Shown: one piece after another, positions 6,955 to 7,640 of the stretch | How positions within the stretch are numbered: position 1 is the first letter of the stretch | How the letters are laid out: every line of letters starts with the position of its first letter | From: Halorubrum depositum | Lineage (GTDB): Archaea; Halobacteriota; Halobacteria; Halobacteriales; Haloferacaceae | Reading direction: 5' to 3' | Assembly (NCBI RefSeq): GCF_007671725.1 | Contig: NZ_VCNM01000001.1 | Coordinates: 434,001-498,000, forward strand | DNA length: 64,000 nt | The notes under the pieces: generated by a model | Database searches by the model: none | Told to the model about the DNA's origin: nothing | What the model saw: the letters and a program-made list of their open reading frames with translations, nothing else | Position numbers and translations under genes: made by a program

Positions 6955-6964
6955 GTTTATAAAC
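6955..6964 (+). promoter_or_regulatory. Palindromic TATA box before hairpin array
   Basis: GTTTATAAAC is a perfect 10-bp palindrome and matches the haloarchaeal TATA consensus. Archaeal initiation about 27 bp downstream on the plus strand would fall near 6986, where the first hairpin begins. Because the box is symmetrical it could also fire on the minus strand towards thyA, giving a leader of about 110 nt. Confidence 0.5.
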
Positions 6965-6983
6965 AATCGAAGCGGTGGCGCGC

Positions 6984-7100
6984 CTCCGAGCGGCCGCCAT
7001 CGGCGGCCGCGAGGAGCCCGCGAGGGAGTCGCTGGCGTCGTCGACGCCAGCGACAGGGCGAGAGCTTCGCTCTCGCTTGCAACCGGCGCTACGCGCCGGT
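6984..7100 (+). repeat. Array of four perfect inverted repeats, candidate structured RNA
   Basis: Four consecutive perfect hairpins: GCGGCCGCC at 6990-6998 pairs with 7002-7010 (loop ATC); a 13-bp stem at 7028-7040 pairs with 7042-7054 (one-base loop); GCGAGAGC at 7058-7065 pairs with 7069-7076 (loop TTC); ACCGGCGC at 7082-7089 pairs with 7093-7100 (loop TAC). A further CTCC/GGAG pairing can extend the first stem outward. Nothing similar is seen elsewhere in the window. It may be a non-coding RNA, a dispersed haloarchaeal repeat or a MITE-like remnant. Confidence 0.75.
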
Positions 7101-7241
7101 GACGAGGCTGGGGAGGCGCGAGGCTGTGCGGTCGCGGTGCGGGGTGGGAGTCAAAGGAGCAGCCTCACGGCTGGGGCTTTGGAGATGTTCACCGCGCCGT
7201 CAACGATTCATAAATAGCCGATCACGACACCCCAATCAAGT

Positions 7242-7640
7242 TCATATAGCCGTCACCCAGGCCCGGTAGTCGTCGTCGAGCCCGTACACTTCGCGGAACG
7301 CGCGCTCGACGAACCCCGCCACGCGGTTCGCGTCCGAGCGCGCGGTGACGACCGCGTTCGTCCCCTCTGCCTCCTCCGGGCTGACGAGCTCGTCGATCCG
7401 GAACTCGGGGAACTCGCCGAGGAGCGCTTTCAGCCGCTCCAGCTCGTCGTCCGTGCAGTCCAAGATCAGCTCCGTGCCGGCGAGCTGGATCCACGGCGGC
7501 ACCTCGCCGCCCTCGGTGACGTCGCTGTCGGGGTCGACGTCGACGGTCATCACGTCGCTCGACCGGGCGCGGTGCGCGGTCGCCGCGTCCGCGAACAGCT
7601 TCAGCCGCTCGTCCTCGGTGGCGGCGTCGAATCGGGTCAT
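7242..7640 (-). CDS. Hypothetical haloarchaeal protein, 132 aa
   Basis: I do not recognise a named family. The protein is acidic and soluble, with no signal or membrane segment. It looks like two alpha/beta halves: residues 1-60 contain a short beta run (VPPWIQLAGTELILDC), and residues 60-132 contain an amphipathic helix (DDELERLKALLGEF) and a C-terminal FVERAFREVYGLD helix. Codon use matches its neighbours, so it is likely a real gene. It is single, with 68 bp between its start and the next gene on the same strand. Confidence 0.7.
   Translation of the reverse strand: MTRFDAATEDERLKLFADAATAHRARSSDVMTVDVDPDSDVTEGGEVPPWIQLAGTELILDCTDDELERLKALLGEFPEFRIDELVSPEEAEGTNAVVTARSDANRVAGFVERAFREVYGLDDDYRAWVTAI

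Follow-up and report, generated by a model that had tools for sequence, protein, structure and literature searches.

REP/BIME and ERIC sequences are intergenic repeats of enterobacteria. The MITEs of Haloquadratum walsbyi are reportedly the subject of a published paper (PMC3119063), and the HEARO and omega RNAs of IscB/TnpB elements are mobile structured RNAs. The element analysed here lies in a 64-kb window (the window being the whole stretch of DNA that was analysed) and is one diverged copy of a dispersed, non-coding, intergenic element family of haloarchaea. Like REP/BIME and ERIC, the family consists of dispersed intergenic palindromes that are multicopy and common to related species, but by description it is set apart from them by its length (approximately 140–310 nt), its multi-domain build, unpaired linkers that do not vary, tandem G.A pairs, exchangeable hairpins and one folding strand. 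With MITEs it shares a short, non-coding, mobile-type nature and many copies. It seems to differ from MITEs in that inspection by eye showed no inverted repeats at the two ends of its body and no clean target-site duplication; TATA-like words occur on both sides. HEARO and omega RNAs also have a conserved unpaired core, variable helices and many copies without a protein gene, whereas the element has no Rfam match and no nuclease gene was identified beside its copies. The likeness to REP, ERIC and MITE is one of dispersal and that to mobile structured RNAs is one of a conserved unpaired core; membership in none of these groups is established. A search of the whole window against Rfam release 15 gave no family at the gathering threshold, and at most weak matches and no family at relaxed thresholds. 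No description of the element was found in the portions of the literature searched, PMC4983044 among it. The element is a haloarchaeal repeat with a strand-specific fold that persists in different genera, and it is absent from Rfam and from these portions of the literature.

The element copy in the window

A covariance model (R1) was built from the alignment of the A-B-C core of 30 copies in the window's genome, with the window copy excluded. The following features, all on the + strand, were located in the window.

6955..6964, +, TATA-like palindrome GTTTATAAAC, 5' of the element body
6972..7193, +, element body, one diverged family copy (R1 model match 6972–7164, 75.2 bits)
6978..7021, +, hairpin A, with outer helix, tandem G.A pairs and inner stem; covariation in the family
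6990–7010, +, perfect stem 1, 9 bp with a loop of 3
7020..7027, +, conserved linker GCGAGGGA
7028..7054, +, hairpin B, a module varying among copies, and among species at one site
7028–7054, +, perfect stem 2, 12 bp with a loop of 3, or 13 bp with a 1-nt loop
7058..7100, +, extra two-hairpin module (7058–7076 and 7082–7100, joined by TTGCA)
7058–7076, +, perfect stem 3, 8 bp with a loop of 3
7082–7100, +, perfect stem 4, 8 bp with a loop of 3
7101..7123, +, conserved G-rich block C, GACGAGGCTGGGGAGGCGCGAGG
7143..7159, +, conserved block GGTGGGAGTCAAAGGAG, with the 5' arm CAAAG (7152–7156) and then one side of a 3x3 purine internal loop
7160..7173, +, reduced D arm CAGCC-TCAC-GGCTG
7174..7193, +, block E, with GGG, the 3' arm CTTTG (7177–7181) and then GAGATGTTCACC; conservation ends here
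7207..7214, +, 3' TATA-like word TTCATAAA

The original prediction placed four perfect hairpins in a row at this locus, and a stem search recovered an array of exactly four perfect stems at 6990–7100. This is the unique place in the window with four such stems within 125 bp, and no such cluster was found in 20 dinucleotide shuffles of the window. The four hairpins correspond to hairpin A, hairpin B and the extra two-hairpin module. The element is larger than this array: the outer helix of the first hairpin begins 5' of its perfect stem (approximately 6978–6987 with 7013–7021), and the conserved sequence reaches approximately 7193, beyond the last perfect stem. The second-best R1 match in the window scores 18 bits, compared with 75.2 bits for the element. 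Reading frames overlap the element; the family copies differ by indels and hairpin replacement.

In hairpin A of the window copy, the inner perfect stem is formed by 6990–6998 and 7002–7010, and the tandem G.A pairs by 6988–6989 with 7011–7012. The outer helix contains one mismatch and a bulged C (C6984) and is two pairs below the usual length. The window copy also carries the closing helix CAAAG/CTTTG, the purine internal loop and CAGCC/GGCTG, with one loop base changed. Its 14-nt D form occurs in four of 63 copies, the window copy included, while D spans 80–200 nt in most copies. The short D with its TCAC loop, GAG in place of GGG, the shortened outer helix and the extra two-hairpin module are the peculiarities of this copy. 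Modules related to the latter are present in other copies in either orientation. Free two-hairpin modules outside elements (11 + 3 places) are not claimed, because these sites are loose 13–14-nt matches without hairpins and mostly coding-looking.

Two GAGGCTG words had been proposed to pair with one CAGCCTC. These words are present, but the pairing is a different one: in the family, CAGCC (7160–7164) pairs with the next GGCTG (7169–7173), and this helix of the window copy also appears in its minimum-energy fold. A role for the second GAGGCTG word was dropped because CAGCC covaries with the GGCTG just after it. A pairing of GGCGCGCCUCC with GGAGGCGCG, seen in a longer fold, was also dropped because variants of hairpin A could not form it.

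Family architecture, covariation and the folded strand

The plan of the family is constant, comprising a G.A hairpin, swappable hairpin modules, G-rich conserved linkers and the closing helix CAAAG-[GGG/GGG]-CAGCC. The A domain has a G-C-rich outer helix, a conserved bulged C, an inner helix, tandem G.A pairs and an apical stem; the tandem G.A columns (20–21 with 43–44) are invariant in all 30 aligned copies. The linker GCGAGGGA separates A from B. The B domain contains at least one hairpin, has many unrelated sequences and often shows tandem G.A pairs again. The C domain consists of GAGGCTGGGGAGGYGTGAGG, a G/T/C spacer of variable length and GGGTGGGACTCAAAGGGG. The D domain is a branched arm of 14–200 nt, the ends of which close through CAAAG-[GGG]-CAGCC with GGCTG-[GGG]-CTTTG, and the E domain is GGCTGGGGCTTTGGAGGTGTTC. 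G.A pairs and linkers stay invariant while the hairpins get swapped out. In some copies, C and E look as if they had been joined by a deletion between their GGCTGGGG words. In one copy (C1:812180, G000), GCCTGCCCC replaces GGCTGGGG, and the G-rich internal loop becomes a fully paired helix. A further E unit is found 3' of E in 23 of 67 copies in the window's genome, after 51, 54, 56 or 57 nt, and in 21 of these 23 the distance is exactly 54 or 57 nt.

Helices A and B were evaluated on a sequence-only alignment (A1), in which 87.4% of the cells are paired, compared with 75.1 ± 0.8% in shuffles. Seventeen of the 26 pairs are changed on both sides (10.0 ± 1.5 in shuffles, none of 500 reaching 17; 2–9 in slid-register controls), although these counts and cells are not independent because the copies are related and exchange sequence. 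Helix A by itself is 97.2% paired. The lower value of helix B (69.1% of cells) arises because unrelated hairpins are forced into one register. The closing helix CAAAG/CTTTG is changed to GAAG/CTTC in three copies of the window's genome, and it is GAAAG/CTTTC in other families wherever both arms were found. According to the original prediction, many scattered copies without covariation would point to a mobile repeat. The many scattered copies were found, but they covary, and the element therefore combines dispersal as a repeat with a conserved fold.

Mismatches in the cells of helix A and the D arm on the + strand comprise 39 G.T and six A.C (p = 5e-7 under equal chance). The + strand was taken as the folded strand because the complement would swap the G.T and A.C counts and turn G.A into C.T. 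As judged from these mismatches, it is the + strand that folds, as RNA or single-stranded DNA. The RNA fold energy of the + strand is below that of shuffles (z -4.5 for 6970–7230 and z -3.1 for 6972–7190), and the opposite strand gives z -5.0 compared with -3.1. Fold energy says nothing on the strand, because both strands beat shuffles: no preference for the + strand was found in the window copy, and the same comparison failed for the plasmid stretch described below.

Distribution, site turnover and candidate explanations

A DNA search of the window's genome retrieved 107 matching pieces, grouped into 40 copies, and R1 gave 77 matches at E ≤ 0.01, the E-values being rough. Of the two readings offered originally, a structured small RNA or a dispersed multi-hairpin repeat, the second is borne out by these 77 matches. 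Direct reading located the conserved core block in 74 copies. Typical copies in this genome score 100–135 bits, and the window copy, with 75.2 bits, is thus a diverged member. Eight relatives contain 101, 122, at least 150, 148, 15, 136, 66 and 117 R1 matches at E ≤ 1e-8. In a class-wide sample, 99 of 292 genomes match R1 at E ≤ 1e-3. They include every one of the 35 same-genus genomes (E ≤ 7e-21); a further 22 belong to the same family but not to the genus and 42 to different families, and the scores outside the genus are lower. Among the weaker matches, 27 of 30 loci were read and were mostly real, with unchanged block order; part of the 3' half is missing at the loci read in G139, G175 and G200. 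The neighbours of thyA are from Halorubrum, and named Halorubrum loci also carry the element. By estimate (150 copies of approximately 280 nt in 3 Mb), the element makes up approximately 1% of some haloarchaeal genomes, and the family would account for many GC-rich clusters of hairpins in haloarchaeal intergenic DNA. Copies also lie at contig ends of the window's genome (the end of C2 and the start of C3), so the repeat probably breaks assemblies.

At the rpl40e-side site, the flanking genes are adjacent in six of ten relatives, and all six carry an element that points the same way. There, the linkers do not vary, hairpin B differs widely among species (two of seven are near-identical), and the intergenic DNA outside the body is not alignable. 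The genes flanking the window copy, thyA and a hypothetical gene, are kept adjacent in four of 29 other genomes, and the element is present in all four. Turnover was surveyed for ten copies of the window's genome in ten relatives, giving 100 genome-site pairs. Both flanks are together in 49 pairs. Of these, 30 contain the core block, without any change of orientation, and 19 do not; when these 19 were read, four had a derivative, gapped or opposite-orientation copy and 15 had no element. One copy is missing from all nine readable relatives, where the intergenic region is 90–145 bp compared with 383 bp; no clean target duplication was found at this site, and the whole intergenic region differs. 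Neither a clean target-site duplication nor a precise empty site was found among the sites compared. Neither an apparent insertion in G299 nor a segment of 2.4 kb in G007 is an element: the first proved to be a gene and the second a histidine-kinase-like gene. As judged by these comparisons, copies are inherited, gained, lost and remodelled. This mixture of stable sites with sites of gain or loss argues for a mobile-type structured repeat.

The flanks of a copy are not together in the other 51 pairs (L241, L243, L242, L248). The survey suggests that elements often lie at rearrangement breakpoints, with some split-flank pairs maybe representing contig ends or unfetched loci. The element would be a likely substrate of rearrangement, its flanking genes often being non-adjacent in relatives.

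The locus was also predicted to be TATA-driven, and the TATA palindrome at 6955–6964 is present. A TATA word that agrees with TTTATAAA in at least seven of eight positions occurs in the 50 nt upstream of 43 of 72 copies in the window's genome; 33 of these lie at -15 to -21 from the body, and bins further upstream than this peak hold 0–1 each. In other families, none of 30 copies has an upstream TATA. The distance from TATA to start in archaea is usually about 30 nt. At this spacing the start would fall inside the outer helix. The absence from copies of other families and this predicted start are the reasons for not calling the element TATA-driven. Upstream flanks (such as those of L134, L146 and L149) often contain another TATA-like word 30–36 nt 5' of the first, with a GTGAGCGACGGCGACGA-like sequence between them.

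The context of 74 copies in the window's genome was determined with a simple gene caller: 29 are convergent, 19 plus 13 tandem, 10 divergent and 3 unresolved. In 50 of the 74 cases the gene 3' of the copy is antisense, which is evidence against the copy being a leader of the gene that follows. The neighbouring genes are various, and the copies do not have the same downstream gene in sense orientation, as a riboswitch or leader would.

The family combines many copies, a covarying + strand fold, hairpin exchange, conserved linkers, and both stable sites and sites of presence or absence. We infer a non-autonomous, mobile-type element, and consider it reasonably probable that the family is such an element and that its folded + strand is what matters. 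A folded single strand (RNA or single-stranded DNA) would be bound by a factor supplied in trans, with the G-rich linkers and the closing helix as the putative binding core. Copies would spread to intergenic sites, exchange hairpins and shrink through recombination, and selection would act on the fold and linkers only. No transposase or other mover was identified for the element, and it counts against mobility that several sites hold a copy in all relatives whose flanks are adjacent, as would also be expected of fixed copies with a function. Such syntenic copies, the TATA that many copies of the window's genome have within a narrow range of distances, and the G.U-type wobbles and conserved unpaired blocks typical of RNA would also suit a multi-copy family of non-coding RNA genes, each with its own TATA, the RNA acting in trans and dispersal being secondary. 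We regard this as possible but doubtful, since a good TATA is missing in 29 of 72 copies of the window's genome and in 30 of 30 copies of other families, the outer helix would be untranscribed at the usual spacing, and copy numbers that range from 15 in one genome to at least 150 in others suit a repeat more than genes.

The intergenic location, with convergent genes as the commonest context (29 of 74, and one more by rpl40e below the length cut-off of the gene caller), is consistent with a cis-acting DNA or transcript structure resembling REP/BIME or ERIC, with a local role in transcription termination, 3'-end protection or nucleoid organisation. This role appears improbable, however: 10 contexts are divergent and 13 co-directional, the single orientation and large conserved core exceed the needs of a terminator or palindrome, and the G.A pairs and wobbles make the fold strand-specific. 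There is very little likelihood that the element regulates thyA or the hypothetical gene (7242–7640) in cis, as a leader or attenuator. It is located between them, but both genes are on the - strand, reading away from or towards it; the element lies beside many different genes, and thyA in most relatives is without it at this place. Short GC stems occur frequently (the window has 43, shuffles approximately 30), yet chance palindromes in GC-rich DNA have a negligible probability and were ruled out by covariation and the 77 genome matches, together with the existence of a family, synteny and the absence of four-stem clusters from shuffles.

A plasmid stretch with a shared 3' module

A copy from another family (L201) matches 36 plasmid records, mostly via its 3' half. 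In six of the seven plasmid regions read, a 'DNA-binding protein' of approximately 290–300 aa starts approximately 450–560 nt away on the other strand. The C-terminal part of this protein resembles an OB fold or replication factor A, below curated cut-offs. A 621-nt stretch beside such an RPA-like gene (L397:3020–3640) has relatives in 166 plasmid records, 79 of which cover at least 80%. Among the 60 rows listed, 49 were named DNA-binding, replication factor A or OB-fold. MPF_T typing applies to six of the 12 plasmids read, and an annotated conjugative transfer gene is nearby in one. In the window's genome, an RPA-like gene and the 3' module are located on contig C4 near 65792–66685 (L411).

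The plasmid stretch resembles the element in its 3' module GGTGGGACTgAAAGGGGC-D-GGGGCTTTC, with an inner AAGCACCGCAG..GAGG.GCGCAG. Unlike the element, it usually has one site per plasmid, in a fixed place by the gene, and its 5' part is different; the 3' module is all that the two have in common. Matches of R1 positions 8–47 to plasmid hairpins (18.7–22.2 bits) were judged convergent because the hairpin branching differs. The plasmid stretch gave no Rfam match. No matches were found in viral contigs searched with two exact core patterns, or in phage records, for which the queries were the window copy and the plasmid stretch.

The shared 3' module points to an uncharacterised conserved non-coding site of haloarchaeal plasmids. 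The approximately 600-nt stretch is possibly a transfer or replication site. It seems rather unlikely, though conceivable, that the chromosomal elements are related to a single-strand-active site on conjugative plasmids of haloarchaea. This site would be a transfer origin, a single-strand initiation site or a single-strand promoter for the RPA-like gene. If so, haloarchaeal chromosomes would carry up to more than 100 strand-specific sites, which would take up their fold in single-stranded DNA and serve as recognition sites in mating, transfer or replication. The plasmids with an approximately 600-nt conserved non-coding stretch by an RPA-like gene include pNRC100 and pNG600.
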